From Bacteroidales bacterium (GTDB lineage Bacteria > Bacteroidota > Bacteroidia > Bacteroidales > UBA932), in contig JAFRUH010000017.1 in assembly GCA_017438975.1 (NCBI GenBank), positions 1 to 64,000 on the forward strand: 64,000 bases of DNA, given 5' to 3'. Below are positions 6,837-42,438 of this stretch, piece after piece. The translations under genes were made by a program, and so were the position numbers. How positions within the stretch are numbered: position 1 is the first letter of the stretch; the number at the start of each line of letters is the position of its first letter. The notes under the pieces are model-generated. The model was not told the DNA's origin and made no database searches. It saw only the letters and a list, made by a program, of their open reading frames with translations.

Positions 6837-7313
6837 TTACTCGGCGGCCGGTGCTTCAGCAGCGGGGGCCTCGGCGGCGGGAGCGGCCTCGGCAGCTTTC
6901 TTGCGGCTGCGGCGGGTCGTCTTCTTGGCCTCCTTCGGAGCGGCGAGGGCCGCTTCGTTGAAGTCGACGAACTCGACGAGGGCCATCTCGGCGGCGTCAC
7001 CCTGACGGAATCCGGTGTGGAGGATGCGGAGGTATCCGCCCGGACGGTCGGCGATCTTCGGCGCAATGGTGCGGAAGAGTTCGGAGACGGCGTTCTTGTC
7101 CTTCAGGTAGCTGAAGACGATACGGCGGGAGTGGGTGGTGTCTTCCTTGGATTTGGTTACGAGGGGTTCGAGGTACGGCTTGAGGGCCTTCGCCTTCGCA
7201 ACGGTCGTTTCAATCCTCTTGTGGAGGATCAGGGAAGAAGCCATGTTGGCAAGGGTAGCCTTGCGGTGACCGCTCTTACGTCCAAGATGATTGACGGATC
7301 TATTGTGTCTCAT
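6837..7313 (-). CDS. rplQ: 50S ribosomal protein L17
   Basis: 158 aa, last gene of the operon, two bases after rpoA. It starts with the conserved [19 protein letters not shown] and contains [10 protein letters not shown] and the [10 protein letters not shown] region of L17. The usual L17 core ends near residue 125; here it is followed by a basic patch ([10 protein letters not shown]) and a low-complexity tail of repeated Ala-Pro-Ala-Ala-Glu units to the stop. Similar Ala/Glu tails occur in other Bacteroidetes L17 proteins, so the tail is probably real and disordered. Confidence 0.95.
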
Positions 7314-7315
7314 TT

Positions 7316-8323
7316 TTAAACGATCTTTTTCTTAGGTTCAATATTATACTTGGTGACATCCATTCCGAAGGAAAGCTTCATCTTCTCGACGAGGATATCG
7401 ATCTCGTTAAGAGACTTCCGGCCGAAGTTGCGGAACTTCATCAGCTCGGCCCTCGAGTAGGAAACGAGGTCGGCGAAAGTATCGATATCGGCAGCCTTCA
7501 GGCAGTTGTAGGCCCTGACGGAGAGCCCCATGTCGGAAAGCTTGGTAAGAAGGAGATGCTTCATGCGGAGTGCCTCCTCGTCAAGCTCCTTGGTATCGGA
7601 TTCGACGGTATTCTCGATGGAGAGCTTCTTGTCGTCTGTGAAGAGCTTGAAATGGTAAATGAGGATGTTGGCTGCATCCTGGAGCGCCGCGTTCGGGGTA
7701 ATGGACCCGTCGGTGACGATCTCGAGGTTGAGTTTCTCGTAGTCGGTCTTCTGTTCGACACGCCAGGGCTCGACAGTCCAGTTGACCTTCTTGATCGGGG
7801 TGTAGATCGCGTCGACCGGAATGGTGCCGATCGGGGTGTTCTCTTCCCGCATCTCCTCGGCCGGAACGAAGCCGCGGCCCTTGGTGATGGTGATGGTCAT
7901 GACGAGTTTGACGGAAGGCTCGAGCGAGCAGATATGCAGCTCCGGATTCAACACCTTGAAAGAAGACAATCCCTTAGAGATTTCCTCTGCGGTGAACTCC
8001 TGCTGGCCGCTGACGGTGATGGTCACGACCTCGGAGTCTACAGTTTCCACCATTCTTTTGAAGCAGACACGCTTCAGGTTGAGGATGATGTCCTGCATGC
8101 TCTCGATCACGCCGGGGATGGTCGCGAATTCCTGATCCACGCCTTCGACTTTGATCTGGGAGATGGCGAAACCTTCGAGAGACGCGAGCAATATGCGGCG
8201 GAGGGCGTTGCCGATGGTCTGACCGTAACCAGGCTCAAGCGGCCTGAATTCGAAACGGCCGACGGTATCGGTGCCTTCGAGCATGATCACCTTGTCCGGT
8301 TTCTGGAATGATAAGATTGCCAT
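7316..8323 (-). CDS. rpoA: DNA-directed RNA polymerase subunit alpha
   Basis: 335 aa, of usual length. The N-terminal dimerisation domain includes [20 protein letters not shown] (residues 24-43), and the C-terminal domain has the helix-hairpin-helix around [15 protein letters not shown] and [12 protein letters not shown], which contacts UP elements and activators. It scaffolds assembly of beta and beta'. It lies between rpsD and rplQ, as in most bacteria. The ATG at 8323 is preceded by AAAAGGAA, a weak Shine-Dalgarno-like run. Confidence 0.97.
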
Positions 8324-8353
8324 AATGATTCCTTTTCTTGGTGTTAATAACTG

Positions 8354-8956
8354 TTACTTGGAGTAGAGGTCGACGATCAGCTGCTCGTTGATGTTCTCCG
8401 GAATCTCCTCGCGTGCAGGGACGTTGAGGAACTTGCCGGTGAGCTCCTTGGCGTCGAATTCAATCCAGGAATACTTGGTTGCGGCGGCAACGCTGTTCTG
8501 GACGACCTCGAGGCTCTTGGACCTTTCACGGACAGCGACGGTCTCACCCGGCTTCACCAGGACGGAAGGAACGTTGCAGATGCTTCCGTTCAGGGAAATG
8601 TGGCGGTGAAGGACAAGCTGACGGGCGGCGGCGCGGGACGGCGCGATACCCATGCGGTAAACGATGTTGTCAAGCCTCGACTCGAGAAGGAGGAGGAGGT
8701 TAACACCGGTCTGACCCTTCATGCGGGCAGCCCTTTCATAGGTGTTGCGGAACTGACGCTCGAGAAGGCCGTACATGTATTTGACTTTCTGCTTCTCCTT
8801 GAGCTGGGTACCGTATTCTTTCTGTTTCTTGCGCTTGGCGGCGAGGCCGTGCTGTCCCGGAGGCGTATTTCTCTTTTCGAACGTCTTGTCCGGACCGTAG
8901 ATAGGCTCGCCGAACTTGCGGGCGATTCTTGTAGTAGGACCAGTATATCTTGCCAT
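8354..8956 (-). CDS. rpsD: 30S ribosomal protein S4
   Basis: 200 aa. Primary 16S rRNA-binding protein of the small-subunit body. It has the S4 N-terminal region ([18 protein letters not shown]) and the S4 RNA-binding fold with [13 protein letters not shown] and [13 protein letters not shown]. It carries no zinc-binding Cys cluster, so it is the Cys-free form. It sits between rpsK and rpoA in the alpha-operon order, and in other bacteria S4 can autoregulate that cluster; no pseudoknot site was looked for here. Confidence 0.96.
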
Positions 8957-8980
8957 AGTAATCTACATTTAAACGGTTAA

Positions 8981-9370
8981 TTAAACTTTACGACGGCCTT
9001 TCGGGCGGCAACCGTTGTGGGGCATCGGGGTAACGTCAACGATCTCGGTAACGGTAATACCGGCATTGTTGATGGTACGGATGGCGGATTCACGGCCGGC
9101 GCCAGGTCCCTTGACGTATACCTTCACCTTGCGGAGGCCGGCGTCGAACGCAGTCTTGGACGCATCCTCGGCAGCCATCTGGGCGGCGTAAGGCGTATTT
9201 TTCTTGGAGCCACGGAAGCCGCACTTTCCTGCGGAAGACCAGCTGATAACCTGGCCCTGCGCATTCGTGAGCGCTACGATGACATTGTTGAAGGTCGATG
9301 AAATATGGGCCTCGCCATAAGCTTCAACCTTGACAACTCTCTTCTTTGCTGTTGTAGTTTTCTTTGCCAT
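8981..9370 (-). CDS. rpsK: 30S ribosomal protein S11
   Basis: 129 aa. Platform protein that contacts the 3' end of 16S rRNA near the mRNA exit channel. Diagnostic stretches include [19 protein letters not shown], the [22 protein letters not shown] block and the C-terminal [19 protein letters not shown] Lys-rich extension of about a dozen residues precedes the core. It lies 13 bases downstream of rpsM. Confidence 0.97.
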
Positions 9371-9383
9371 AATTCATCAATCT

Positions 9384-9761
9384 TTATTTGGTCGCTTTCT
9401 TCTTGTTGGCGACAGTCTTCTTCTTACCCTTGCGTGTACGGGCGTTGTTCTTGGTGCTCTGGCCGCGGACAGGGAGGCCTGCACGGTGACGGATGCCTCT
9501 GTAGCAACCGATATCCATGAGACGCTTGATGTCCATCTGGACGGAGGAACGGAGCTCGCCTTCGATCTTGTACTCCTCGTTGATGAGGTTACGGATCGCC
9601 GCTACCTGCTCGTCATTCCAGTCACCGACCTTGATGCTGCGATCGATTCCGCAATCGTCCAGGATCTTCTGGGCGGAGCTGCGGCCGATTCCGAAGATAT
9701 AGGTAAGTCCTATCTCTCCCCTTTTGTTGTTCGGTAAATCAACACCGGCTATTCTTGCCAT
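9384..9761 (-). CDS. rpsM: 30S ribosomal protein S13
   Basis: 125 aa. Head protein that bridges to the large subunit and contacts P-site tRNA. It has [21 protein letters not shown] at its start, an H2TH-like core, and the signature [14 protein letters not shown] followed by a strongly basic tail ([14 protein letters not shown]) that reaches the P site. It follows rpmJ in the conserved order infA-rpmJ-rpsM-rpsK-rpsD. Confidence 0.97.
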
Positions 9762-9799
9762 ATTCTATTCTCGACTTAAATTAGTTATACAAACGAATT

Positions 9800-9916
9800 T
9801 TATCCCTGGCGCATCTTGAATTTAGGATTCTTCTTGCAAATGACGTAGAGACGGCCTTTGCGTCTGACGATCTTGCAATCTTCGCTGCGCTTCTTGATGG
9901 ATGCCTTGACTTTCAT
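9800..9916 (-). CDS. rpmJ: 50S ribosomal protein L36
   Basis: A 38-aa protein. It reads [10 protein letters not shown]...[14 protein letters not shown] and ends NPKFKMRQG, the full L36 sequence. Cys14 and Cys27 are kept, but the zinc ligand set is incomplete (no second CxxC pair), so this is probably the zinc-reduced form. It lies between infA and rpsM, its standard place. Confidence 0.95.
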
Positions 9917-9928
9917 TTCTTTATGTTT

Positions 9929-10147
9929 TTATTTGTATCTGAAAGAAATTCTTCCTTTTGTTAAATCGTAAGGTGAGATTTCAACTTTAACCTTGTCGCC
10001 CAGAAGGATATGGATAAAGTTCATCCTCATCTTACCTGAAATGTTGCAGAGGAGGACGTGACCGTTTTCCAGTTCAACGCGGAACATCGCGTTGGGAAGG
10101 GTCTCGATAACTGTTCCATCCTGCTCGATAGCTACTTGTTTTGACAT
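9929..10147 (-). CDS. infA: translation initiation factor IF-1
   Basis: 72 aa, the exact usual size. A single OB fold that binds the 30S A site during initiation. Typical residues are [40 protein letters not shown] and [18 protein letters not shown]. It follows map and precedes rpmJ, as in many Bacteroidetes alpha operons. Confidence 0.97.
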
Positions 10148-10170
10148 TGGAATTCCACTTTAAAATTTAA

Positions 10171-10959
10171 CTAAACGGTCTTCTCGATGAAATCAAAGGT
10201 GGAAAGCTGTTCAGCCCGGCCTTTCCGGACAACAACCGTAAGCTCGTAATGCGCTGCGTTGCGGTGGTCCGCGGTATGTACTGCCCAACCATTTCTTGCA
10301 AGATACACACCCCTTCCACCGGCGCAGATCATCGGCTCAATGCAGATCGTCATCCCGTCAGTGAGTCTTGCCCCGTGGCCCTGCCTTCCGTAATTCGGAA
10401 TGCCGGGAGCCTCGTGCATTTCCCTGCCGATCCCGTGTCCCTCCAGTTCGCGAACGACGGAGAAACCGAAACTTTCTGCATACGATTGCACCGCGTGTCC
10501 GATGTCGCCTGTCCGGCTTCCGGCAACAGCCGCCTCGATGCCCTTGTACAGGGATGCCTTGGTGACATCCAGGAGTTTACGGGTCTCGGCGTCCACCTCC
10601 CCGACCGGGAAGGTGTAAGCCGAGTCACCGTTATATCCTTTGTACAGAGTGCCGCAATCGACGGAAACGATGTCTCCCTCCTTGAGGACGTAGTCCGACG
10701 GAAAACCGTGGACGACGACATCGTTGACCGAGATGCAAAGCGCTGCGGGGAAGCCTTCAAAACCCTTGAAGCTCGGAATGGCACCGTTATCACGGATAAA
10801 GGTCTCAGCCACCTCATTCAACTTTGCAGTTGTCACACCTGGGGCGACGATCTTACCGACCTCTGCGAGTGTCCTCGACACAAGCTCTCCGTTGATGCGG
10901 AGCAATTCGATCTCTTCTTCTGTTTTAGGCCTGACCATCCGACTCTGATTCAATTTCAA
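10171..10959 (-). CDS. map: type I methionine aminopeptidase
   Basis: 262 aa. Removes the initiator Met from nascent proteins and uses two divalent metals. The metal ligands are visible: Asp in VSVDCGTLYKGYNGDSAYTF (two Asp), His in ELEGHGIGREMHEAPG, and Glu in MTICIEPMIC plus a C-terminal Glu in AHYELTVVV. A start at residue 8 (MVRPKTEEEIELL, 10938) is also possible and would match typical family starts. It sits four bases after secY and is co-transcribed with it. Confidence 0.95.
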   Translation of the reverse strand: MKLNQSRMVRPKTEEEIELLRINGELVSRTLAEVGKIVAPGVTTAKLNEVAETFIRDNGAIPSFKGFEGFPAALCISVNDVVVHGFPSDYVLKEGDIVSVDCGTLYKGYNGDSAYTFPVGEVDAETRKLLDVTKASLYKGIEAAVAGSRTGDIGHAVQSYAESFGFSVVRELEGHGIGREMHEAPGIPNYGRQGHGARLTDGMTICIEPMICAGGRGVYLARNGWAVHTADHRNAAHYELTVVVRKGRAEQLSTFDFIEKTV

Positions 10960-10963
10960 AGAA

Positions 10964-12283
10964 CTACATACCGGAACGTCCTGTCAGACGACCTGTCTTC
11001 ATAAGTCCGTCATAATGACGCATAAGCAGATAACCTTCAATCTGCTGGAGCGTGTCGAGGACAACGCCCACGAGGATCAGGAGGGAAGTGCCTCCGAAGA
11101 AGCTCGCGAAGGAGTTGTTGACCCCCATCTTGATGGCTCCGGCAGGAAGGATCGCGATGAGTCCGAGGAAGATGGAACCCGGGAGGGTAACCCTGTCAAG
11201 GATGTCATCGAGATACTTCATCGTCTGCTTGCCGGGTTTGACACCCGGGATGAAACCGCCGTTCTTCTTCATGTCTTCGGACATCATCTGCGGATTCACA
11301 GTGACGGCCGTGTAGAAGTACGTGAAGACGACGACGAGGATGAAGAATACGAAGTTATACCAGAATCCCGTGTAGTTTCCGAACGTAGCCGCGAGTCCCC
11401 GGGTCTTGTCGCTGAGCGAGAAGAGCATCGGGAAGAGCATGAGCGCCTGCGCGAAGATGATCGGCATGACGCCCGCGGCGTTGATCTTCAGCGGGAGATA
11501 CTGGCGGACTCCGCCATACTGCTTGTTGCCGACAACCCTCTTGGCATACTGTACCGGAACTTTGCGGACAGCCTGCACCAGGGCGATGGCGGCGATGATG
11601 ACGAAGAACCAGACAATGAATTCGACGATGAGGATCAGGAGACCGCCGCCGCTGTTGGCAGAGAGCTTCTGGGAGCACTCGGCGACAACCGCATACGGGA
11701 GACGGGCGACGATACCGATCATAATGATCAGGGAGATACCGTTGCCGATGCCACGGTCGGTGATCCGCTCACCCAGCCACATGACGAACATGGAGCCGGC
11801 CATGAGGATGATCGTGGAAATCATGTTGAACGCGAAACCGCTCCAGCCGACTGCGATAGCGTTGCGCGGGATCATACCGGTAACGTACGCAGGTCCCTGG
11901 ATCGCGAGAATCAGAATGGTAAGGTACCTGGTAATCTGATTCATCTTCCTGCGGCCGCTCTCGCCTTCCATCTGCATCTTGCGGAAGGAAGGGACGAACA
12001 TGCCGAGAAGCTGGACCACGATGGACGCCGAGATGTACGGCATCACACCGAGCGCAAAGATCGAAGCGTTGCCGAACGCGCCGCCGGAGAACATGTTGAG
12101 GAGGCCGACGAGGCCTTCCTGCGTGCTTCCCTGCAGAGCGGAGAGCCGAGCCGGATCCAGGCCCGGGAGTACGATGTAGCAACCCAGGCGGTAGATCAGG
12201 ATCAGGAGGATCGTGTAACCGATCCGGGTCCGGAGCTCCTCGATCTTGTAGATGTTCTTGATTGTCTCGATAAATTTCTTCAT
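10964..12283 (-). CDS. secY: protein translocase subunit SecY
   Basis: 439 aa. Channel subunit of the SecYEG translocon in the inner membrane, with ten expected membrane segments. Recognisable regions are the N-terminal RTRIGYTILLILIYRLG, the plug region after the first helix, and the cytoplasmic loop before the last helices (MKKNGGFIPGVKPGKQT). The C-terminus ends near GRLTGRSGM. It lies ten bases after rplO and is followed by map, the standard spc order. Confidence 0.97.
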   Translation of the reverse strand: MKKFIETIKNIYKIEELRTRIGYTILLILIYRLGCYIVLPGLDPARLSALQGSTQEGLVGLLNMFSGGAFGNASIFALGVMPYISASIVVQLLGMFVPSFRKMQMEGESGRRKMNQITRYLTILILAIQGPAYVTGMIPRNAIAVGWSGFAFNMISTIILMAGSMFVMWLGERITDRGIGNGISLIIMIGIVARLPYAVVAECSQKLSANSGGGLLILIVEFIVWFFVIIAAIALVQAVRKVPVQYAKRVVGNKQYGGVRQYLPLKINAAGVMPIIFAQALMLFPMLFSLSDKTRGLAATFGNYTGFWYNFVFFILVVVFTYFYTAVTVNPQMMSEDMKKNGGFIPGVKPGKQTMKYLDDILDRVTLPGSIFLGLIAILPAGAIKMGVNNSFASFFGGTSLLILVGVVLDTLQQIEGYLLMRHYDGLMKTGRLTGRSGM

Positions 12284-12292
12284 CGCAGTATA

Positions 12293-12742
12293 CTATTCAA
12301 TTACAGTTGCCTTACCACCCGCAGCCTCGATCTTGGCGAGGGCGGATTTGGAGAACGCGTGTGCGGAGACCTCGAGGGCGGCGGTCAGTTCGCCGTTGCC
12401 GAGGATCTTGACGAGGTCGCCCTTGGCAGCGAAGCCGGCGCCGATGAGGGTCTCAGGGCCAAACGTATTGACACCGAGCTTCTCGGAGAGGGCCTGGAGC
12501 GTAGCGACGTTGACGGCCTGGTACTCTACACGGGTCGGGTTCTTGAAGCCGAACTTCGGGAGACGGCGCTGGATAGGCATCTGGCCGCCTTCGAAACCGA
12601 TCTTGTGGGAATAACCGGAACGGGACTGGGCGCCTTTGGTACCACGGGTGGCGGTACCGCCTTTGCCGGAGCCTTCTCCGCGGCCGATTCTCTTATTCTT
12701 GTGGGTTGCACCCTTGGCGGGTTTCAAATTTTCAAGTTTCAT
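12293..12742 (-). CDS. rplO: 50S ribosomal protein L15
   Basis: 149 aa from ATG 12742 (MKLENLKPAKGATHKNKRIG). An in-frame ATG at 12763 would overlap rpmD and is rejected because a strong Shine-Dalgarno sequence (12751-12756) sits eight bases before 12742. L15 features are the GRGEGSGKGGTATRGTKGAQ loop region, the RRLPKFGF motif, and a folded C-terminal half. It is a late-assembly protein of the large subunit. Confidence 0.95.
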   Translation of the reverse strand: MKLENLKPAKGATHKNKRIGRGEGSGKGGTATRGTKGAQSRSGYSHKIGFEGGQMPIQRRLPKFGFKNPTRVEYQAVNVATLQALSEKLGVNTFGPETLIGAGFAAKGDLVKILGNGELTAALEVSAHAFSKSALAKIEAAGGKATVIE

Positions 12743-12750
12743 CTCTTTCT

Positions 12751-12756
12751 CCTCCT
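12751..12756 (-). promoter_or_regulatory. strong Shine-Dalgarno site of rplO
   Basis: AGGAGG, within AAGGAGGAG, eight bases before the ATG at 12742. It lies inside the 3' end of rpmD. Such sites are rare in Bacteroidetes, and it decides the rplO start. Confidence 0.7.
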
Positions 12757-12938
12757 TAGTCAATTACTTCAACCTTGACGAGATGCTGAACTTTCTCCAA
12801 CTGACCACGGTTGATCGGAGTGTCTTCAACAACGACCGTCTGATGCATCTTGCGGATACCGAGAGAGCGGAGATTGGCGATCTGCCTCTTGGTCTCGCCG
12901 TTCTTGCTGATGACCTGGGTAATTTTAAGCTTTGCCAT
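12756..12938 (-). CDS. rpmD: 50S ribosomal protein L30
   Basis: 60 aa. Small large-subunit protein with the L30 ferredoxin-like fold. It contains KITQVISKNGE, ANLRSLGIRKMHQTVVVEDTP and RGQLEKVQHLVKVE. It follows rpsE by 14 bases and has a clear Shine-Dalgarno sequence (AAGGAG) eight bases ahead of its ATG. Its stop lies beside the rplO Shine-Dalgarno, so the two genes are probably translationally linked. Confidence 0.95.
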   Translation of the reverse strand: MAKLKITQVISKNGETKRQIANLRSLGIRKMHQTVVVEDTPINRGQLEKVQHLVKVEVID

Positions 12939-12946
12939 AATCTCTT

Positions 12947-12952
12947 CTCCTT
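12947..12952 (-). promoter_or_regulatory. Shine-Dalgarno site of rpmD
   Basis: AAGGAG eight bases before the ATG at 12938, in the short rpsE-rpmD spacer. Confidence 0.6.
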
Positions 12953-13471
12953 TTATCCGTTAAACACTTTGTTCATCGGGATACCGCGAAGGCCCGCAAC
13001 CGTGTAGGCGTCACGCATCTCGGTGAGAGCTGCGATCGTAGCCTTGACAAGGTTGTGGGGGTTCGAGGAACCCTTGGATTTTGCCAGAACGTTCTGGACG
13101 CCGGCAGACTCGAATACGGCACGCATAGCGCCGCCGGCCTTCACACCGGTACCGGGGGCGGCCGGTTTCATGAACACCTGGGCTCCGCCGAAACGGGCTT
13201 CCTGCTCGTGAGGGATCGTCGTGTTGATGATCGGAACCTTGACCAGGTTCTTCTTCGCATCTTCGACACCCTTGGCGATGGCAGCGGTAACTTCGTTCGC
13301 CTTGCCAAGACCATAGCCGACGACGCCATTCTCGTCACCGACGACGACGATGGCGGCAAAACGGAAGTGACGACCACCCTTGGTGACCTTGGTCACACGG
13401 TTGATGGCTACCAATCTGTCTTTCAGTTCGAGATCGGACGTCTTTACTCTTTTAACGTTAGAATTTGCCAT
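12953..13471 (-). CDS. rpsE: 30S ribosomal protein S5
   Basis: 172 aa from ATG 13471 ([20 protein letters not shown]); an in-frame ATG at 13483 adds four residues. S5 helps decode and lines the mRNA entry. It has the N-terminal double-stranded-RNA-binding-like half ([36 protein letters not shown]) and the C-terminal half with [18 protein letters not shown]. Normal length and normal place between rplR and rpmD. Confidence 0.95.
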
Positions 13472-13483
13472 AGTCTTATTCAA

Positions 13484-13846
13484 TTAGAAATCGAGGCCGC
13501 CTTCACGGGCAGCGTCTGCCAAACTTTTAACCCTGCCATGGAAGAGATATCCGCCACGGTCGAAAGCGACCTTGGAGATACCCGCAGCCTTGGCGCGCTC
13601 TGCAATCGCCTTGCCGACGATGGCCGCGGCTTCGATGCCGGTCTTGCCTTTGCACTCGGCGGCGAGAGCCTTATCGTTGGACGAAGCGGCTGCGAGGGTG
13701 CATCCGCGCTCGTCATCAATGACCTGAACATAGATCTGCTTGTTGCTTCTGAAAACAACCATGCGAGGGCGCTCAGCTGTGCCATTGACATGCTTGCGGA
13801 TCCTGAAGTGGATCCTTCTTCTTCTTTCTGTTCTACTCAATGCCAT
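13484..13846 (-). CDS. rplR: 50S ribosomal protein L18
   Basis: 120 aa. Binds 5S rRNA in the central protuberance. It starts with a basic stretch ([20 protein letters not shown]), then [20 protein letters not shown] and the C-terminal [21 protein letters not shown], all typical of L18. The ATG follows an AGGAGG at eight bases spacing, one of the best ribosome-binding sites in the window. Confidence 0.96.
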
Positions 13847-13854
13847 AACTTTAT

Positions 13855-13860
13855 CCTCCT
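13855..13860 (-). promoter_or_regulatory. strong Shine-Dalgarno site of rplR
   Basis: A perfect AGGAGG eight bases upstream of the ATG at 13846, in the short spacer after rplF. Confidence 0.75.
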
Positions 13861-13862
13861 AA

Positions 13863-14423
13863 TTATTTAGCGGAAGCGGTCTTGCCGGCCTTGCGACGCA
13901 GCTGCTCACCGACAAACTTGATACCCTTGCCCTTATACGGCTCAGGACGACGGAACGAACGGATCTTCGCGGCGATCTGGCCGACGAGCTGCTTGTCCGC
14001 GCTCTTGAGCACGAGGACGGGATTCTCACCCTTGCGGACCTGAGGAGTCTCGGCGGTCACCTCCTTCGGGAGAAGGAGCTGGATGTCGTGGGAATAACCC
14101 AGAGACATGGTGACGAGCTGGCCCTGGACGGCGACACGGTAACCGACGCCGACGAACTCCTGCTTGATCGTGAATCCCTCGGAAACGCCGACGACCATGT
14201 TGTGGACGAGGGCCCGATAGAGACCGTGCATGGAGCGGAACCGCGGCTGGTCGCCAGGACGGGTGAACTTGATTTCATTTCCCTCGATGGTGACGGTGAT
14301 ATCCGGATCTACCTTCTGGCAGAGCTCACCAAGAGGTCCTTTCACCTTCACAACGTTGCCGTCGAGGAGCTCTACGCTCACTCCGGCCGGAAGGTTTACA
14401 GGCAATTTACCTATTCTTGACAT
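13863..14423 (-). CDS. rplF: 50S ribosomal protein L6
   Basis: 186 aa from ATG 14423 (MSRIGKLPVNLPAGV), the family's standard start. The longer frame to 14459 would overlap rpsH and is not used. L6 lies near the factor-binding site. It has two tandem L6 folds and the C-terminal signature PEPYKGKGIKFVGEQLRRKAGK. It lies 20 bases downstream of rpsH. Confidence 0.96.
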   Translation of the reverse strand: MSRIGKLPVNLPAGVSVELLDGNVVKVKGPLGELCQKVDPDITVTIEGNEIKFTRPGDQPRFRSMHGLYRALVHNMVVGVSEGFTIKQEFVGVGYRVAVQGQLVTMSLGYSHDIQLLLPKEVTAETPQVRKGENPVLVLKSADKQLVGQIAAKIRSFRRPEPYKGKGIKFVGEQLRRKAGKTASAK

Positions 14424-14443
14424 AATATCGGATTGATTTTGGA

Positions 14444-14839
14444 TTAGTAAACATAACAAATAACCTCACCGCCGACATTGAGCTCCTTGGCCTCCTTGTC
14501 AGTGATGACACCCTTGGACGTAGAGAGGACGGCGATGCCGAGGCCGTTGAGGACGCGCGGCATGTTCTTCACGTCGACGTATTTGCGGAGACCCGGCGTG
14601 GAAACGCGGACGATCTTCTTGATCGCGGCAGTCTTGGTCTGCGGGTGATACTTGAGCGCGATCTTGATGGTGTTGAAAGGCTCGCCCTCGACTACCTTGT
14701 AGCTGAGGATGTATCCTTTCTCACAAAGGATCTTGGTGATAGCGACCTTCATGTTGGATGAAGGGATCTCGACGATCTTCTTACCAGCGAGGTAAGCGTT
14801 ACGGATTCGAGTCAGAAAATCTGCAATTGGATCAGTCAT
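14444..14839 (-). CDS. rpsH: 30S ribosomal protein S8
   Basis: 131 aa. Binds the central domain of 16S rRNA. Typical regions are MTDPIADFLTRIRNA, the SSNMKVAITKILCEKGYI helix and the C-terminal LGIAVLSTSKGVITDKEA with EVICYVY. In enterobacteria S8 is the translational repressor of the spc operon; no matching mRNA site was identified here. Confidence 0.96.
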   Translation of the reverse strand: MTDPIADFLTRIRNAYLAGKKIVEIPSSNMKVAITKILCEKGYILSYKVVEGEPFNTIKIALKYHPQTKTAAIKKIVRVSTPGLRKYVDVKNMPRVLNGLGIAVLSTSKGVITDKEAKELNVGGEVICYVY

Positions 14840-14918
14840 TTTTTTGTCTTTTTGTGGACCGGCCTGGAAAACAGGCCCGATATCCGATTGTTATTATAAA
14901 TAATGTATAAGTCCTGGT

Positions 14919-15188
14919 TTACCAGCTCGCCTTCTTGACACCCGGGATCAGACCGGAAGAAGCCATCTCGCGGAACTGGATACGGCTGATGCCGAACTCG
15001 CGCATATATCCCTTCGGACGACCGGTCAGGGAGCAACGGTTGTGGAGACGGACCGGGCTCGCATTCTTCGGGAGCTTATCAAGGGCGGCATAATCGCCGG
15101 CTTCCTTGAGGGCCTGCCTCTTCGCGGCATACTTAGCAACTAACTTCGCGCGCTTTACCTCGCGGGCTTTCATTGATTCTTTTGCCAT
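14919..15188 (-). CDS. rpsN: 30S ribosomal protein S14
   Basis: 89 aa, the longer form without the CxxC zinc motifs (only one Cys, in [10 protein letters not shown]). It has [20 protein letters not shown] at the start and the conserved C-terminal [21 protein letters not shown] with VKKASW. It binds the 30S head. It lies between rplE and rpsH. About 80 bases follow before rpsH, a longer spacer than its neighbours have. Confidence 0.96.
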
Positions 15189-15196
15189 CTTCTATC

Positions 15197-15796
15197 TTAG
15201 TTATTATGTTTCTTGAAAGGAAGACCGAAGGCCTTGAGGAGGGCGTGAGCCTCTTCGTCGGTGCGGGCCGTAGTAACGAACGTGATCTCGATACCGTGGA
15301 TGCGCGGGTTCTTGTCGATCTCGATCTCAGGGAAGATGATCTGCTCCTTGATGCCGAGGGTGTAGTTGCCCTGTCCGTCCATCTTCTCGGCGATGCCGTT
15401 GAAGTCGCGGATACGCGGGAGGGCGACACGGATGAGGCGCTCGAGGAATTCATACATCTTGACGTCGCGGAGAGTCACCTTCGCGCCGATTGGCATGCCC
15501 TTACGGAGCTTAAAGTTGGAGATATCCTTCCGGGAGGAAGTGATGACCGCCTTCTGGCCGGCGATGATGGAGAGCTCCTCAGCGGACTCCTCGACGAGCT
15601 TCTTGTCCTGGGTAGCATCGCCGACACCCTCGTTCAGGGTAATCTTGACGAGCTTCGGGACCTGCATGACGGTCGTATAGGAGAACTGCTTCACCAGAGC
15701 GGGGACGATCTCCTCTTTATAAACTTTCTTCAGGGACGGCACATAGTCCTTAGGAAGAGCCTGTACCTCGACTGCTTTGTTTGCTTTCTTTGCCAT
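15197..15796 (-). CDS. rplE: 50S ribosomal protein L5
   Basis: 199 aa. Binds 5S rRNA and contacts P-site tRNA. It has the expected [17 protein letters not shown], the [20 protein letters not shown] region, the [15 protein letters not shown] helix and [18 protein letters not shown] near the C-terminus. A Lys/Ala start ([12 protein letters not shown]) precedes the core and makes it slightly longer than E. coli L5. A Shine-Dalgarno GAGGAG lies eight bases upstream. Confidence 0.96.
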
Positions 15797-15798
15797 AA

Positions 15799-16110
15799 TT
15801 AGATCTCCTCTCCAGATTTTCTAGCGATGCGAACCTTCTTTCCGTCAACCATCTTGTGGCCGACCTTGACCGGCTTGCCGGTGGAGTCCATGAGCTGGAC
15901 GTTGGAAACGTGGATAGCAGCTTCCTGTTTAACAATACCGCCCTGCGGATTCTTGGAGTTCGGTTTGGTATGCTTGGATACCATATTGACACCCTCTACG
16001 ATGACGCGGTCCTTCTCGCGGACAACCTCGAGAACCTTTCCGGTCTTGCCCTTATCGTTGCCGGCATTTACGTAAACGGTATCGCCTTTCTTGATTTGGA
16101 ACTTTTTCAT
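15799..16110 (-). CDS. rplX: 50S ribosomal protein L24
   Basis: 103 aa. Early-assembly protein near the polypeptide exit. It has the KOW-motif start [20 protein letters not shown], then [32 protein letters not shown], and a short basic C-terminus. It follows rplN by 12 bases and is separated from rplE by two. Confidence 0.96.
15805..15810 (-). promoter_or_regulatory. Shine-Dalgarno site of rplE
   Basis: GAGGAG eight bases before the ATG at 15796, overlapping the last codons of rplX. Confidence 0.6.
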
Positions 16111-16122
16111 GATGCTTTCTGA

Positions 16123-16488
16123 TTAAAGGACCTCCGGTGCCAGTGAAACGATCTTCATATAATTCTCGCGGAGCTCACGGGCGACAGGGCCGAAAATACG
16201 GGTTCCACGAAGTTCTCCGGCGTTGTTAAGGAGAACGCATGCGTTATCGTCGAAACGGATGTAGGAACCGTCCGCTCTGCGGATTTCCTTCTTGGTACGG
16301 ACGACGACGGCCTTGGTGACAGTGCCTTTCTTCGCGTCACCTCCGGGGATGGCGCTCTTGACCGCGACGACGATCAGGTCGCCGACAGTGGCATAACGGT
16401 GGTTGGTACCGCCAAGAACACGGATGCAGAGGACTTCCTTCGCACCGCTGTTGTCAGCTACCAATAAACGAGTTTCCTGCTGTATCAT
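16123..16488 (-). CDS. rplN: 50S ribosomal protein L14
   Basis: 121 aa, the usual length. It lies at the subunit interface and forms bridges with 16S rRNA. Its signature is [40 protein letters not shown] and the C-terminal [25 protein letters not shown]. It is separated from rpsQ by only two bases. Confidence 0.97.
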
Positions 16489-16490
16489 AA

Positions 16491-16745
16491 TTACTTAGCT
16501 TTTTCTACAATTTCTACTAATCTCCAGTTCTTGGTCTTGCTGAGGGGACGGGTCTCCATAATACGGACGGTATCGCCGACACCACACTCATTCTTGTCGT
16601 CCTGAGCGACGAACTTGGTGGTCTTCTTTACGAACTTGCCGTAAATAGGATGCTTCTCATGTCTCTCGACAGCGACAACGATGGTCTTGTCCATCTTATT
16701 GCTGACCACGATTCCTATTCTTTCCTTGCGAAGATTTCTTTCCAT
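16491..16745 (-). CDS. rpsQ: 30S ribosomal protein S17
   Basis: 84 aa, OB-fold protein that binds helix 11 of 16S rRNA. It contains [38 protein letters not shown] and the motif [20 protein letters not shown]. It has normal size and position between rpmC and rplN. Confidence 0.97.
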
Positions 16746-16760
16746 AGGACATTACTCTTT

Positions 16761-16958
16761 TTAGTTCTGCGCTTTTTCCTTCTCGGCGAGGATAGTGATC
16801 ATACGAGCAATATCCTGACGGGTCTTCCTGAATTTTGAAGTGTCCTCCAACGGAGAGACAGCGTGATTGAGCTTCATCGTGTCGAGGTTGTTCTTCTCGA
16901 TTTCGATGCGGTCGCGGAGGTCGGCGATGGACATTTCGCGTGCTTCAGATACTTTCAT
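16761..16958 (-). CDS. rpmC: 50S ribosomal protein L29
   Basis: 65 aa from ATG 16958 (MKVSEAREMSIADLRDRIEI). The frame extends to 16991, but that would overlap rplP, and a strong GGAGGAG ribosome-binding site lies seven bases ahead of 16958. The protein is a two-helix hairpin at the exit tunnel that helps dock SRP and trigger factor. The C-terminal helix reads KTRQDIARMITILAEKEK. Confidence 0.95.
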   Translation of the reverse strand: MKVSEAREMSIADLRDRIEIEKNNLDTMKLNHAVSPLEDTSKFRKTRQDIARMITILAEKEKAQN

Positions 16959-16965
16959 TTTACTT

Positions 16966-16972
16966 CTCCTCC
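16966..16972 (-). promoter_or_regulatory. strong Shine-Dalgarno site of rpmC
   Basis: GGAGGAG seven bases before the ATG at 16958, just after the rplP stop region. It settles the rpmC start. Confidence 0.7.
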
Positions 16973-16977
16973 ATTGA

Positions 16978-17400
16978 TTATTCTTCAACATAGTCCCTGC
17001 GGACGACGAATTTGGTAGCGACCGGGAGCTTCTGGGCGGCCAGACGCATCGCCTCTTTCGCAGTCGCGAGCGTTACACCCTCAGCCTCGAAAAGGATACG
17101 GCCCGGAGTGACGGGGGCGACGAAGCCCTGAGGATCACCCTTACCTTTACCCATACGGGTGGAGAGCGGTTTTGCGGTAAACGGCTTGACAGGGAAGATG
17201 CGGATCCACACCTGGCCCTCACGGTTCATCCTACGGGACATCGCCTGACGGGCAGCCTCTATCTGCTGTGCAGTAAGCCAACAATTTTCAAGGGTCTTAA
17301 GGCCGAAAGAGCCGAACGCAAGCTGGTTGCCCCTTCCGGAGTTGCCCTTCATGCGGTTCTTCTGTTCCCTTCTGAATTTTGTTCTTTTAGGTTGTAACAT
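16978..17400 (-). CDS. rplP: 50S ribosomal protein L16
   Basis: 140 aa, near the A site and the 5S rRNA. Diagnostic stretches are [40 protein letters not shown] and [20 protein letters not shown]. In almost all bacteria this gene directly follows rpsC within the S10 operon. Here it is the first gene: upstream lie an 80-base leader, a promoter at 17489-17518, a palindromic gap and then pgk. None of rpsJ, rplC, rplD, rplW, rplB, rpsS, rplV or rpsC is present. Confidence 0.96.
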
Positions 17401-17488
17401 TGCTGTATTACTTTAAAAATTTCCTAACAAATCCCTAACTAATTGAAGCTCAGCTGGTTGGGTGCGTATTGCCGCAATTTTGGGATTG

Positions 17489-17518
17489 CAAAGTTACAAA
17501 AAAAATCTGAAAAGCAAA
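17489..17518 (-). promoter_or_regulatory. promoter of the rplP-rplQ ribosomal operon
   Basis: TTTG at 17515-17518, 18 bases, then TAACTTTG at 17489-17496 on the minus strand, a good Bacteroidetes promoter. Transcription would start near 17482, about 80 bases before the rplP ATG, so the operon really can begin at rplP. Confidence 0.7.
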
Positions 17519-17648
17519 TAGTTTTGAAGAATTTTTTCGCAATTTTCGACCGCCGTTTTTGATAGCTAACTCTCGCTTTTTCCGTCACTTACATTTTTCC
17601 TCCAAAAATTTTTCTCCACATTTTCGACCACGCCCCTTTCGTCGTCCC

Positions 17649-17757
17649 GGAGGAGGGTATGCCGACCGGAATCCATGGCCACCCTCGGCCATGTAAGAGG
17701 GAGGGGCCCTCCGGGAGGGGTCGCGAAGCGACGATTCCGGTCGGCATACCCTCCTCC
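17649..17757. repeat. nested palindrome with perfect 25-bp inverted arms
   Basis: The arms 17649-17673 and 17733-17757 are exact reverse complements over 25 bases. The 59-base centre contains further hairpins: catggcc/ggccatg (17674-17680 with 17687-17693) and gtcgc/gcgac (17720-17724 with 17728-17732). Outside the arms, cctttc on the left can pair with gaaagg on the right after a bulge. It is too long and elaborate for an ordinary terminator. Options are a MITE-like or REP-like palindromic element, a folded non-coding RNA, or a recombination scar. No transposase is nearby. Confidence 0.7.
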
Positions 17758-17770
17758 GAAAGGGATGGAC

Positions 17771-17805
17771 AAAAAAGAACGCCCGGAGAAGTGCTCCGGA
17801 CGTTC
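17771..17805 (-). terminator. Rho-independent terminator of pgk
   Basis: On the minus strand a 12-base stem (GAACGTCCGGAG with CTCCGGGCGTTC, one G-U pair) with a five-base loop is followed by TTTTTT. It lies about 25 bases after the pgk stop, so pgk and the ribosomal operon are separate transcripts. Confidence 0.85.
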
Positions 17806-17828
17806 CGTATGAAACGAGTTGCGGAATC

Positions 17829-19082
17829 TTATCCGCGGATGGCGGCGACACCCGGGAGTTCCTTGCCTTCGATGGCCTCGAGCATGGCTCCGCCGCCGGT
17901 GGAGACGTAGCTGACCTTGTCGGCATAGCCCATCTGGGTCACGGCCGCGACGGAATCGCCGCCGCCGACCAGGGTGTAGGCGCCGTTACGGGTCGCTTCG
18001 GCGAGGTCTTCGGCGATCTGGAGGGTTCCCTTCGCGAAGTTCGGAAGTTCGAAAACGCCCACGGGACCGTTCCAGAGGATGGTCTTGGAAGCGAGGATCA
18101 CCTTCTTCCAGCTCTCGAGGGTGACGGGAGCGGCGTCCATGCCCTCCCAGTCGTCGGCGATATCGTTCGTCTTGAAGATCCGCTGCGGCGTGTCGTTGTC
18201 GAACTTCTGGCCGGCGACGGTCTCGATGGACAGATAGACGTTGACGCCTTTTTCCTTCGCGGTGGCGAGGATCTCGAGCGCATCCGGGATGAGTTCATCC
18301 TCGTGGAGCGAGAGACCGATCTTGCCGCCCTTGGCCTTGATGAAGGTATAGCCCATGCCGCCGCCTATAATCAGGTTGTCGACCTTGCCGACGAGGTTCT
18401 TGAGGACCGCAAGCTTCGAGCTGACCTTGGAACCGCCGATGATGGCGGTCAGCGGACGCTCGGCGTGCTTGAGGACGTTGTCGATGGCGGCGATCTCGCC
18501 TTCCATCAGGTAGCCGAACATCTTGTCGTTCGGGAAATAGTCGGCGATGAGGGCGGTAGAGGCGTGGGCGCGGTGGGCCGTGCCGAACGCATCGTTGACA
18601 TAGCAGTCTGCGTAGGACGCGAGGGTCTTCACGAACTCCTTCTGGCTGGCCTTGACGGCGGCCTTCGCCGCCTTCTTTTCCTCGTCGGAAGCGTCGTCCT
18701 TCAGTCCGCGCGGCTTGCCTTCCTCTTCAGCGTAGAACCGGAGGTTCTCGAGAAGAAGGGCCTCGCCCGGCTTGAGGGCGGCCGCCTGGGCTGCTGCCTT
18801 CTGGCAGTCGGGAGCGAACTGGACGGGAACGCCGAGGCACTCGGAAACATGGTCCACGATATGCTTCAGGGAGAAAGTCGGATCGACTTTCTTCGGACGG
18901 CCGAGGTGGGACATGATGATGACGGAACCGCCGCCCGCAAGGATTTTCTTAAGGGTCGGCATCGCCCGGCGGATGCGGGTGTCGTCCGTGATTTCGAACT
19001 TCTCGTTGAGCGGAACGTTGAAATCGACTCTCACAATGGCCTTTTTGCCCGTGAAGTCATACTTGTCAATAAACTGCTGCAT
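17829..19082 (-). CDS. pgk: phosphoglycerate kinase
   Basis: 417 aa. Converts 1,3-bisphosphoglycerate and ADP to 3-phosphoglycerate and ATP in the cytoplasm. The substrate-binding signature VRVDFNVPL lies at residues 18-26, MSHLGRPK near 58-65, and the nucleotide-binding Gly-rich GGGDSVAAV near the C-terminus. It is about 20 residues longer than typical PGKs because of a charged Lys/Glu/Ala helix insert after [14 protein letters not shown], as seen in Bacteroidetes enzymes. It has its own promoter (TACCTTTG at 19120-19127) and terminator. Confidence 0.96.
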
Positions 19083-38415: not shown

Positions 38416-38661
38416 TTATTCGCCGAGTTTTTCAGCTACCTTCGCGATCGCGTCAGCGACAGTAGCGATTCCACTGGTTTCCTCATCGGGAATCTTGATG
38501 CCGAATACTTTTTCGAATTCCATCAGAAGTTCAACCGTGTCAAGGGAATCTGCGCCAAGATCATTGGTGAAATTTGCGGTTTCGGTGACTTCCGACTCTT
38601 CAACGCCAAGCTTGTCAACGATAATAGCTTTGACCTGCTTTACGATTTCTTCGTGTGTCAT
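38416..38661 (-). CDS. acpP: acyl carrier protein
   Basis: 81 aa, acidic. Carries growing fatty-acid chains on a phosphopantetheine arm attached to Ser39 in [16 protein letters not shown]. The helix pattern and length are those of the fatty-acid synthase ACP. The gene is monocistronic: the convergent sulfatase lies after it and pnuC is the next gene on its upstream side. The usual partner fabF is not adjacent. Confidence 0.95.
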
Positions 38662-38770
38662 GATAAAATAGATTTAGTTTATAATTTTAATATACGTACT
38701 TCCACTTATAGTTTGCAAAGTAAGTAATTTTTATTGAAAAAGAAAAGTATTTGTTCCAAAAAGCCGATAA

Positions 38771-39526
38771 TCATGGCGTAACCGCGGCCTCGGGACGGCT
38801 TAATTTCAGCCAAATACGCAGTCCGTTCAGCGAATTGATGAAATAGAACGAATACTTCAGCAACATGACGACGGCAGAGCTGTCGGCCCCTCCGTGGAGA
38901 AGGGTGGTCGCCCAGATGGTGACCGAAAACACATTGACCAGGATCCAGCAGTACCACTGCTCCATGAAGGCCAGCGAAAGCAGGACCTGGCCGAAAATAT
39001 TGAAGACGAGAGCGGCCGCATCGGTCGCGACTTTGAGGGTATCGATTTCCGTAAGGGCTCCGGAGGACAGTTTCGCCCTGTCGATTCCATAGAGGATGCC
39101 GAAAGCGGCGAGAAGGCTTGCCAGCACGGCCGGGATGAGGATCATCCATTGCTTTTTCGTGAAGCGCTTGGCGCGGACCTGCCGGTCGTGGGAGGCTCCC
39201 CGTTTCCTCCATTGCAGGAAGCCGACCAGCTGCATCGGAAGGAAATAGAAGGCGTGGAGGGCGAACTGGCCGACCACCCCGTTCTTCCAGCAGACGAAAG
39301 CGTAGATGACGACGTCGATAAAGCCGAAGAGGAAGGTCAGGATATAGCCGTTTGCCGAAAGGACCGTATTGATGACCCCCATGCAGGCGCCGATGCTCGC
39401 GATGACGAGGAGCACCTTGTCGACCTCCGGATTCCGGAATTTCAGAATATTGGACACGAGGACGGCGAGAAGCATTGCGATGACGATCGCAATATTGAAA
39501 ACCGTATTGAATGTCTTCTCTTTCAT
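38771..39526 (-). CDS. pnuC: PnuC-type nicotinamide mononucleotide/riboside transporter
   Basis: 251 aa with about seven membrane segments, the PnuC topology. Typical features are FLFGFIDVVIYAFVCWKNGV, the QLVGFLQWRKR loop and the WYCWILVNVFSVTIW segment with paired Trp residues. It imports a vitamin B3 nucleoside or a related vitamin. The relatively long loop around 105-125 is basic. It lies six bases downstream of uvrC. No riboswitch is visible in the tiny spacer. Confidence 0.85.
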   Translation of the reverse strand: MKEKTFNTVFNIAIVIAMLLAVLVSNILKFRNPEVDKVLLVIASIGACMGVINTVLSANGYILTFLFGFIDVVIYAFVCWKNGVVGQFALHAFYFLPMQLVGFLQWRKRGASHDRQVRAKRFTKKQWMILIPAVLASLLAAFGILYGIDRAKLSSGALTEIDTLKVATDAAALVFNIFGQVLLSLAFMEQWYCWILVNVFSVTIWATTLLHGGADSSAVVMLLKYSFYFINSLNGLRIWLKLSRPEAAVTP

Positions 39527-39532
39527 AGCCGT

Positions 39533-41341
39533 TTATCCGGGGAACAGTTCAGGATTGAGTTCCCGGTGGATACGCAAAGCAAGTTCCGTACCAACCAGGG
39601 CGGCGATGTCTTCGACCGGGGCGGAGGCGATCCGGGCGACGCTCCCGAAATGCAGGAGAAGGCGCTGCTCCGTCTTCTCCCCGACCCCCTTGATGTCCCG
39701 GAGAACGGAATGGATCTGGGCCTTGCTGCGGAGATTCCGGTGAAAAGTGATGCCGAAGCGGTGGGCCTCGTCGCGGATATGCTGCAGGACCTTCAGGGCC
39801 TGCGAGTTACGGTCGATGAAGAGCGGGTAGGGATCCCCGACGCGGATAACTTCCTCGAGACGCTTGGCAAGGCCTACGACGGTCAGCTGCTCGGTCAGGC
39901 CGAGCTCGGCGAGCGCCTGGTAGGCTGCGTCCAGCTGCCCCTTTCCGCCGTCGATGACGATCAGCTGGGGCAGGTCGTCCGGGGCTTCGGCGAGCATCCG
40001 CGAATAGCGCCGGTTCACGACTTCCTTCATCGAAGCGAAGTCGTTCGCTCCGATGACCGTCTTGATCTTGAATTTGCGGTAATCCTTCTTGGAAGGCTCG
40101 CCGTCGCGGAAAACGACACACGAAGCGACCGGATTGGTCCCCTGGATATTGGAATTGTCGAAGCATTCCATGTGCCGGGGCAGGACCTCCATCCCGAGGG
40201 CTTTCCGAAGGTCCTCCATGACGGACAGGCGGTACTGGTCGGGATCGGTATGTTCTTTCTGCTTGATGGAATTGAAATGGAATTCCTTGGCATTCTTGGC
40301 GCTGAGTTCCAGCAGGGCCAGTTTGTCGCCCCGGACGGGAATCCGGAACGTCACCCCTTCGATTTCGACATCCGGCAGGAAGGGGACGATGACCTCCTTT
40401 GCAAGGGTCCCGAACTTCGACTCGATTTCGGCGATGAAAGCGCTCAGGACGGCGGAGGGTTCCTCCTCGATCTGCATCCGGAAACCGAGATTGAGGGACT
40501 GTATGACGGCCCCGCCGCGGATCCGGAGGAAATTCCCGAAAGCCTCGTTGACGTCGAACACCAGCGAGAAAACGTCCGCGGCAGTATCCATAGAGGAGGT
40601 GATGATGGACTTGGAATAATGCTTCTCCAGTGAAGCCGCCTTTTCTTTATAAATCTGGGCGGTCTCGAAATCAAGTCTTTCCGCCGCCTCGCCCATCAGG
40701 GCCCGGTAGTGCTGGAGGATTTCCCCACCGCGTCCGGTCAGGAGATGGACGATCTCTTCGATCCATCCCTGGTACTCCTCTTTCGAAACGCCGCCGACAC
40801 AACAGCCGCGACAGCGCCCGAGATGGAAATTGAGGCAGGGGCGGAATTTCTTGCGGAGGATCGCCTCCGAAGTGATTTTGAGGTTGCAGTTGCGCAAGGG
40901 GTACATCTCGGAGAAGAATCCGATCAGGTTCCGGGCGTGCAGGACGGAACTGTACGGGCCGAAATAGCGGTTCCCGCCGCTCTTGTCCATCCTCCTGGTA
41001 ATGAACACCTTCGGAAACTCGTCCCCGGTCACGCAGATCCAGGGATAGGTCTTCGAATCCTTTAGGAGGATATTGTACTTGGGCTTGTACTGCTTGATGA
41101 GATTGTTCTCGAGGAGCAGCGCGTCAGCTTCGGAATCGACGACGGAATACTGGGCGTCCGCGATCCGGGAGACCAGCAGGCGGGTCTTGGTGTTCAGCCG
41201 CTCGGGCGGCACGAAATACTGGGCGACCCTTTTGTGGAGATCCTTCGCCTTCCCCACATAAATGACGTTCCCCGAGGAGTCGTAATACCGATAGACTCCC
41301 GGGGAATGTGGAAAAAGTGCGATTTTCTCTTTTACGGTCAC
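39533..41341 (-). CDS. uvrC: excinuclease ABC subunit C
   Basis: 602 aa from a GTG start that overlaps the TAG of the preceding gene by one base. Makes both incisions in nucleotide-excision repair. The N-terminal GIY-YIG nuclease (SPGVYRYYDSSGNVIYVGKA), the UVR-type motif (RLDFETAQIYKEKAASLE), the RNase H-like catalytic region (VIDGGKGQLDAAYQAL) and C-terminal HhH motifs (IKGVGEKTEQRLLLHFGS) are present in order. Confidence 0.95.
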   Translation of the reverse strand: MTVKEKIALFPHSPGVYRYYDSSGNVIYVGKAKDLHKRVAQYFVPPERLNTKTRLLVSRIADAQYSVVDSEADALLLENNLIKQYKPKYNILLKDSKTYPWICVTGDEFPKVFITRRMDKSGGNRYFGPYSSVLHARNLIGFFSEMYPLRNCNLKITSEAILRKKFRPCLNFHLGRCRGCCVGGVSKEEYQGWIEEIVHLLTGRGGEILQHYRALMGEAAERLDFETAQIYKEKAASLEKHYSKSIITSSMDTAADVFSLVFDVNEAFGNFLRIRGGAVIQSLNLGFRMQIEEEPSAVLSAFIAEIESKFGTLAKEVIVPFLPDVEIEGVTFRIPVRGDKLALLELSAKNAKEFHFNSIKQKEHTDPDQYRLSVMEDLRKALGMEVLPRHMECFDNSNIQGTNPVASCVVFRDGEPSKKDYRKFKIKTVIGANDFASMKEVVNRRYSRMLAEAPDDLPQLIVIDGGKGQLDAAYQALAELGLTEQLTVVGLAKRLEEVIRVGDPYPLFIDRNSQALKVLQHIRDEAHRFGITFHRNLRSKAQIHSVLRDIKGVGEKTEQRLLLHFGSVARIASAPVEDIAALVGTELALRIHRELNPELFPG

Positions 41342-42438
41342 TACTTCAGGCAGTCGGCGACGGCCTTGCGGATCGCTTCGCCGCGGAGGTCGCGCTTGAG
41401 GATCGTTCCGTCAGGACCGAAAAGGATGATATGGGGAATGCCCTCGATGCCGTAGAGATCGGTCGGGCCCTGCTGGGCGTTGATGATCTGATTCCAGGAG
41501 ATGCCGAGTTCTTCGGCTGCAGCCTTGCTGTCCTCGGGCTTGTCCCAGACTGCGACGCTGAGCATGTCGAACTTGTCGGAGTGGAACTCGTCATAAACGG
41601 CCTTGAGGTTCGGCATCTCGGCACGGCAGGGGCCGCACCAGGAGGCCCAGAAGTCGACGATCATATACTTGCCCTTTCCGATGAAATCGGAGAAACGGAC
41701 CGTCGTCGCCTCGGCGTTTTCGGGATCCTGGACGACCGTGAAGTCCTTGAACATCTTGCCTTCGGCCGTTTCCATCCGGATCTCGATGGCCTTTCTCTTC
41801 TGCTGGACCGGTTCCATGGCGCGGACAGTCTCGCCGAGTCCGTCGATGATGCCGATCATTTCCTCGTCGTCCGCATCGATGGTGGTGAGGGCCATCAGGG
41901 CAAGGAGGTTGTCCTTGTTGGCGGCGAGGACCTCGCGGCACCGGGTATTGATATTCCCGGAGGCGGTCTCATAGATGGCGTTCAGCCTGGATTCCTTCTC
42001 TTCGTCGGAAAGGCCTTTTTCTTTGGCGAGGGCGTCGTTGTCGGCGCGGAACTTCGTCATGATATCCTGCATACTTGCGTTGAATTCATCGTAAGCGGCC
42101 TGGACGGATTTCTTCGGATTGGAAGAGGTGATGACGGCAGCGCCTTCATCACTGAACTTCACCGTCAGCTTGGTGCCGTCGAGGATGACGCGGGCGGTAT
42201 GGTCCTCGCTGTCGATCGTCGCCATAGCGAGCACGTCGGTCGGGAGCTCAACCGTGAAAGAGCGCGTGTCAGGATTGGTCTTGACAAGGGTATCGAGGTC
42301 TCCGGAGATGATATGCACCTCGGCGGGAACTTTGCCCTCATACTGTCCGACGAGAACGGTCTTGTCGGAGGGTTTGCCGTTGCAGGCGAACAGCACGGAA
42401 GCGGCCGCCATCAGCAGGAAAAGATTTCTTGTTTTCAT
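41341..42438 (-). CDS. TlpA/ResA-like thioredoxin lipoprotein
   Basis: 365 aa. Lipoprotein signal with Cys19 (SVLFAC). The first ~220 residues resemble the DUF4369 domain often joined to thioredoxins in Bacteroidetes; the C-terminal thioredoxin fold has WASWCGPC with Cys268 and Cys271 and a cis-Pro region GIEGIPHIIL. It would reduce or isomerise disulfides in the periplasm or on the cell surface. A -7 box TATCTTTG lies at 42470-42477, about 32 bases upstream. Confidence 0.88.
   Translation of the reverse strand: MKTRNLFLLMAAASVLFACNGKPSDKTVLVGQYEGKVPAEVHIISGDLDTLVKTNPDTRSFTVELPTDVLAMATIDSEDHTARVILDGTKLTVKFSDEGAAVITSSNPKKSVQAAYDEFNASMQDIMTKFRADNDALAKEKGLSDEEKESRLNAIYETASGNINTRCREVLAANKDNLLALMALTTIDADDEEMIGIIDGLGETVRAMEPVQQKRKAIEIRMETAEGKMFKDFTVVQDPENAEATTVRFSDFIGKGKYMIVDFWASWCGPCRAEMPNLKAVYDEFHSDKFDMLSVAVWDKPEDSKAAAEELGISWNQIINAQQGPTDLYGIEGIPHIILFGPDGTILKRDLRGEAIRKAVADCLK

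Follow-up and report, generated by a model that had tools for sequence, protein, structure and literature searches.

The S10 gene order is regarded as near-invariant, and the question raised by this locus is why rplP stands at the head of a ribosomal protein cluster with no rpsC before it. The window (64,000 bases, the first part of the 87 kb contig C12) belongs to a 2.8 Mb genome of Candidatus Cryptobacteroides assembled in 33 contigs. The host family, UBA932, consists of gut bacteria known mainly from metagenomes. A preliminary description of the window had reported the first eight S10 genes as missing, and proposed either a rearrangement into separately regulated halves or an assembly join of unrelated sequence at a palindrome.

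The rplP cluster and the relocated S10 genes

The rplP gene (L16; 16978..17400, minus strand) is a 140-amino-acid open reading frame with a PF00252 match (E = 2.7e-50), and its product has 94% identity to the best named relatives. It heads the downstream S10/spc/alpha unit. Analysis of the open reading frames, gaps and Pfam matches placed the cluster from rplP to rplQ at 6837..17400 (minus strand), in the order rplP-rpmC-rpsQ-rplN-rplX-rplE-rpsN-rpsH-rplF-rplR-rpsE-rpmD-rplO-secY-map-infA, followed by rpsM, rpsD, rpoA and rplQ. The intergenic gaps from rplP through infA were 2-79 bp by reading-frame coordinates, and Pfam supported rplP, rpmC, rpsQ, rplN, rplX, rplE, rpsN, rpsH, rplF, infA, secY and map. 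The standard rplP-rpmC-rpsQ order noted in the preliminary description was thus borne out, as was the lack of S10 genes before rplP: the window has pgk there and no rpsC.

The pgk gene (17829..19082, minus strand; PF00162, E = 9.7e-143) is the next gene upstream of rplP. Both features that had been described between the two genes were located, namely an intrinsic terminator of pgk (17806-17776, minus strand) and a palindromic repeat of 111 bp with 26-bp perfect arms (17648-17758, no strand assigned). The repeat gave 33 matches in the genome, including its own copy and the reverse of that copy. No match to it was found in the 60 named relatives' loci, and one 34-bp piece was present in G016; it looks like a genome-specific REP/MITE-like family. 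Among 29 pgk loci of the genus (1.5 kb flanks, a few limited by contig ends), pgk adjoined rplP in the window genome only, and it was beside rplP in none of the 60 named rplP loci.

The eight genes described as missing proved to be relocated. A search of the genome's own contigs, as the preliminary description had proposed, found all of them on contig C33, which rules out their loss: rplC-rplD-rplW-rplB-rpsS-rplV-rpsC lies at C33:13154-9252, and rpsJ lies behind rpsG-fusA (C33:159262-158978), with 146 kb separating it from rplC. The S10 operon of this genome is in three pieces. Divergent cdaA-mutS2-yraN genes precede rplC, and rpsC (C33:9252-10022), 9 kb inside the contig, is followed by a convergent gene for a vWA-domain protein of 738 amino acids (L013 6831-9047). 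A terminator scan near rpsC listed plus-strand terminators only. An inverted repeat with a T run (L013 9147-9115, minus strand), found by reading the sequence by eye, could mark the end of the rpsC transcript.

Distribution and origin of the breaks

The genus was surveyed with a joined RpsC and RplP query against 86 genomes, with both genes among the matches listed in 61. The remainder were left unscored (17 with one gene, six with none, and two dropped because they had partial rows only). The two genes were adjacent in none of the 61. In 31 genomes they were on the same strand, 9.9-26.5 kb apart; in four they shared a contig but were distant or on opposite strands; and in 26 they were on different contigs. 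A family-wide search of 119 genomes, 110 of them from 24 other genera, gave 30 scorable genomes of 11 other genera among the matches listed. Adjacency was again absent, the genes being on different contigs in 27 and far apart on one contig in three. In the single-contig family genome G189, rpsC and rplP are 155 kb apart. Complete separation was seen in the window genome, G016, G033, G063, G065, G105 and others.

Outside the family, rpsC and rplP were adjacent in 69/69 scorable genomes from other families of the order (77 searched; eight with one row unlisted) and in 72/72 from the rest of the phylum (75 searched; two without a match and one being the window genome itself). In the phylum set, seven genomes gave a single joined match and 65 had a gap of no more than 371 bp. 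Similarly, rpsC was directly upstream of rplP in all 20 Alistipes-like and other outgroup loci, and was absent upstream of rplP, save at 9 kb or more, in all 60 named genus-like loci, for which at least 0.77 kb of upstream sequence was examined. The comparison of relatives suggested in the preliminary description therefore showed the same breakpoint in 61/61 genus and 30/30 other-genus scorable genomes. An rpsC directly upstream of rplP was sought in the scorable family genomes, and none was found. Two rplP matches of equal score and identity were noted in G019 (C13:63567-63989 and C39:354-776), perhaps reflecting a duplicated contig end.

The operon is also broken between rpsJ and rplC. These genes were adjacent in 0/32 genus genomes with both among the matches listed (38 searched), in 0/31 genomes of other genera (33 searched) and in 10/10 outgroups. 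No rplC was found in the relative G112. In G082 and G089 all of the pieces are collinear and both inserts are present. The order is rpsL-rpsG-fusA-rpsJ, 5.5 or 6.8 kb, rplC...rpsC, 10.2 or 10.4 kb, and rplP, and the 5.5 or 6.8 kb insert carries cdaA-mutS2-yraN on the other strand.

The block between rpsC and rplP in the relatives was characterised by tblastn and Pfam. Its first part comprises genes for a tlpA-like thioredoxin, uvrC, pnuC and acpP. The middle, on the other strand, includes a lipoprotein gene and a glycogen-synthase-like gene, and the end consists of ftsX, DUF3098, uppP and a metallophosphoesterase gene, then DUF4294. The lipoprotein had no convincing Pfam match, and a DUF4270 label that had been guessed for it was unconfirmed by Pfam and was discarded. 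Insertion of a mobile element was considered; the insert genes that could be identified are housekeeping genes, and the 111-bp palindromic repeat did not occur in the named relatives' loci. The second half of the block is inverted in L051, L056, L075, L077, L078 and G097, and some relatives carry extra genes within it. The insert of G097 includes a run (L161 6053-12986) that reads as a histidine (his) operon.

In 12 outgroup genomes, uvrC, ftsX and DUF4294 (where found) were at separate places, with ftsX and uppP together in 10. Because the parts of the block lie separately in the outgroups, its assembly probably took place in this lineage. In five further genera of the family (g28, g30, g36, g41 and g43), the 6 kb preceding rplP contained parts of the ftsX-DUF4294 half, and G112 has rpsC-uvrC-...-DUF4294 with no rplP afterwards. 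The order rpsC-insert-rplP was present in none of the other-genus loci fetched, and the rpsC side of the insert was seen in the genus and G112 only. In the window, the first half of the block (tlpA-like thioredoxin, uvrC, pnuC and acpP; 38416..42438, minus strand) lies 21 kb upstream of rplP. The second half (ftsX-uppP-DUF4294) is at C27:29311-32871, so that the operon and block pieces of this genome are spread over three contigs (C33, C12 and C27).

Misassembly was considered at two levels. A false join of unrelated contigs at the palindrome, with rpsC truly preceding rplP, would fit the presence of a multi-copy repeat in the gap, a pgk-rplP neighbourhood seen in this genome alone (1/29), and an assembly of 33 contigs with 3.6% contamination. 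Such a join was ruled out as the source of the rpsC|rplP break by the absence of adjacency in all 91 scorable family genomes, including the single-contig G189. Furthermore, rpsC lies well inside C33 with a different gene following it, and the promoter and leader of rplP (17518-17401) are conserved in the genus; we regard this explanation as extremely improbable. The suspected join at the palindrome therefore fails for the rpsC|rplP break and could still apply to the pgk|rplP junction, which is unique and lies beside the repeat. Here the true neighbour of rplP would be the ftsX-DUF4294 block, as most named relatives' loci carry some part of that block, DUF4294 or another, upstream of rplP. However, in this genome the block lies within C27 and is flanked by other genes, there is no repeat copy near it among the copies listed, and the relatives show many arrangements at the same place. 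A join confined to pgk|rplP was thus considered unlikely.

The explanation that we favour, with high confidence, is that the S10 operon was split three ways in the family ancestor, likely by invasion followed by separation, and that rplP has a leader with predicted feedback. The resulting units would be rpsL-rpsG-fusA-rpsJ, rplC...rpsC and rplP...secY...rplQ. Approximately 5-7 kb (cdaA-mutS2-yraN and others) would have entered between rpsJ and rplC, and a housekeeping block of approximately 10 kb between rpsC and rplP, with inversions and insertions later pushing the pieces apart; the order of these events is inferred. The collinear arrangement of rpsC and rplP around housekeeping genes in 31 genomes of the genus fits the invasion-then-separation process described by Brandis (2021; PMC8046335).

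Promoter and leader of rplP

The promoter of the rplP unit (17489..17518, minus strand), for which the earlier coordinates were exact, reads TTTG-N18-TAACTTTG and fits the TAnnTTTG element of the Bacteroidales primary sigma type. TAnnTTTGC was present upstream of rplP in the window, in 59/60 named genus-like loci, in 18/20 family loci and in 0/20 outgroup loci. The rplC gene also has its own TAnnTTTG promoter, in 24/25 loci (L013 13155-13222; L231-L250). The Bacteroides primary promoter, as given in PMC7366714, has TTTG at -33 and TAnnTTTG at -7. The promoters of rplP and rplC share the TAnnTTTG element with it. As points of difference, the spacer in this genome is 18, and the -33 TTTG is exact in 35/60 rplP loci, with TTG in 16 and neither in nine.

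Judging from the promoter, the 5' leader of rplP (17401..17488, minus strand; 88 nt) would be transcribed. It was examined by alignment, a swap test and a leader model. The leaders of genus-like loci measured 48-113 nt. In a MAFFT alignment of 46 leaders (A1), 45 were ungapped before column 36, the start of a core CUGAnnnUCA; UG followed the core start in 45 leaders, and 42 had UCA at columns 43-45. With a loose pattern, 16/18 family leaders showed a comparable motif, equally far along the leader. A sequence-only model built from A1 gave one strong match per genus genome, located at rplP, in 8/8 genomes (E 7e-9 to 4e-20), with the next-best match at E >1e-3. The model gave weak leader matches in 12/20 family loci (E 2e-4 to 0.28), and in four family genomes of other genera it matched at rplP in G126 only, among the matches listed. 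Three of the 60 genus-like loci (L079, L085 and L086) keep the promoter, but their leader is 48 nt long and lacks the conserved core; the full leader is therefore dispensable. These are three species with natural leader loss.

Conventional searches for a structured RNA were negative. Rfam gave no match at the gathering score in the window, and a relaxed threshold over 17300-17560 gave two matches only, both far below the cut-off. RNAalifold predicted no pairs on A1, and APC-corrected mutual information showed no clean helix in the leaders. In the 12 leaders folded singly, stability exceeded that of shuffled sequences only slightly (z -0.07 to -1.71), and averaged pair probabilities indicated different helices in the genus and in other genera. 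Register shifts between lineages may explain the negative alignment tests.

An alignment-free swap test was used, in which the 5' part of one leader was folded with the 3' part of another. Own halves folded at -13.2 kcal/mol and swapped halves at -10.0 kcal/mol (n = 63, z -11.9, 0/5000 permutations). The result held after thinning to 75% identity (n = 38, z -9.9) and 65% identity (n = 22, z -7.9), each with 0/5000 permutations, and within the genus alone (n = 46, z -8.7, 0/5000 permutations). The short-range split (3-22-36) in the genus alone was weak (z -1.1 to -2.0). The control region upstream of the promoter gave z +0.6 to -3.0, with -3.0 in one geometry (10/5000 permutations), and pgk leaders gave z +0.6 to -2.0. 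The case that the rplP leader forms a structure maintained by compensatory changes is good but not final, and the 88-nt leader is a new candidate ribosomal-protein leader.

To accept the break as real leaves room for the leader to be an mRNA-stabilising 5' structure or a translation-related untranslated region rather than a protein-binding RNA, and we give this only slightly less than even weight. The rplC transcript too would begin with a short hairpin, maintained through compensatory changes (24 leaders, z -4.5), the three relatives above manage without most of the rplP leader, and the single-sequence folding is weak, with alignment-based covariation not found. On the other hand, the conservation of the A1 core exceeds the needs of a stabilising hairpin, and pgk leaders show little such pairing.

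If the rplP leader is instead regulatory, it would place the detached spc/alpha half under separate feedback by a ribosomal protein encoded there. S8 is our prior guess for the binding regulator because S8 controls spc in E. coli; the CUGAUA core of the leader may resemble the S8 site of 16S rRNA. A fuller proposal, that the split freed spc/alpha from its old control and that a new autoregulatory leader then arose before rplP in this family, is advanced tentatively, as somewhat more doubtful than not. If true, it would add a new class of ribosomal-protein leader, whose origin could be placed by the very rearrangement that created the need for it. The rearranged, separately regulated halves proposed in the preliminary description are supported, as far as sequence data allow, by the distribution of the breaks, the rplP and rplC promoters and the leader.

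Comparison with known systems

The results describe a gut-bacterial family that breaks the S10 order at two fixed places within the operon, with living intermediates that show plausible steps. The family may serve as a natural test of how ribosomal-protein dosage is balanced once an operon has been cut, and it may include a case of a regulatory RNA coming into being. In annotating these genomes, a lack of S10 genes upstream of rplP should not on its own be taken to indicate a bad assembly. No report of the rpsC|rplP break or of an rplP leader was found in the open-access literature; PMC1924603 tabulates the intact S10 operon.

In the account of Brandis (PMC8046335; main text), a few genes insert first and separation follows, with 77/115 rearrangements traced to gene insertions. 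In 75/115 events the break falls between operons and leaves them intact, and insertions within an operon are also known, such as nrdHEF in rpoBC. The present case is alike in the probable insertion followed by separation and in the insertion within an operon. It differs in having two breaks inside the S10 operon (rpsJ|rplC and rpsC|rplP), shared by all scorable family members, in another phylum; the main text of that study does not mention rplP or rpsC.

Ribosomal-protein leader RNAs, including those for L13 and S4 in Bacteroidia, were described by Eckert and Weinberg (2020; PMC7247131), in whose main text neither rplP nor L16 is named. The rplP leader resembles them as a lineage-restricted, apparently structured 5' leader directly upstream of a ribosomal-protein operon, and is at present a candidate. 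It differs in its position before rplP, a site that exists solely through the operon split, and its protein binding is putative. The split would represent a process of a known type acting at sites where it is unusual, and the leader a candidate new RNA.
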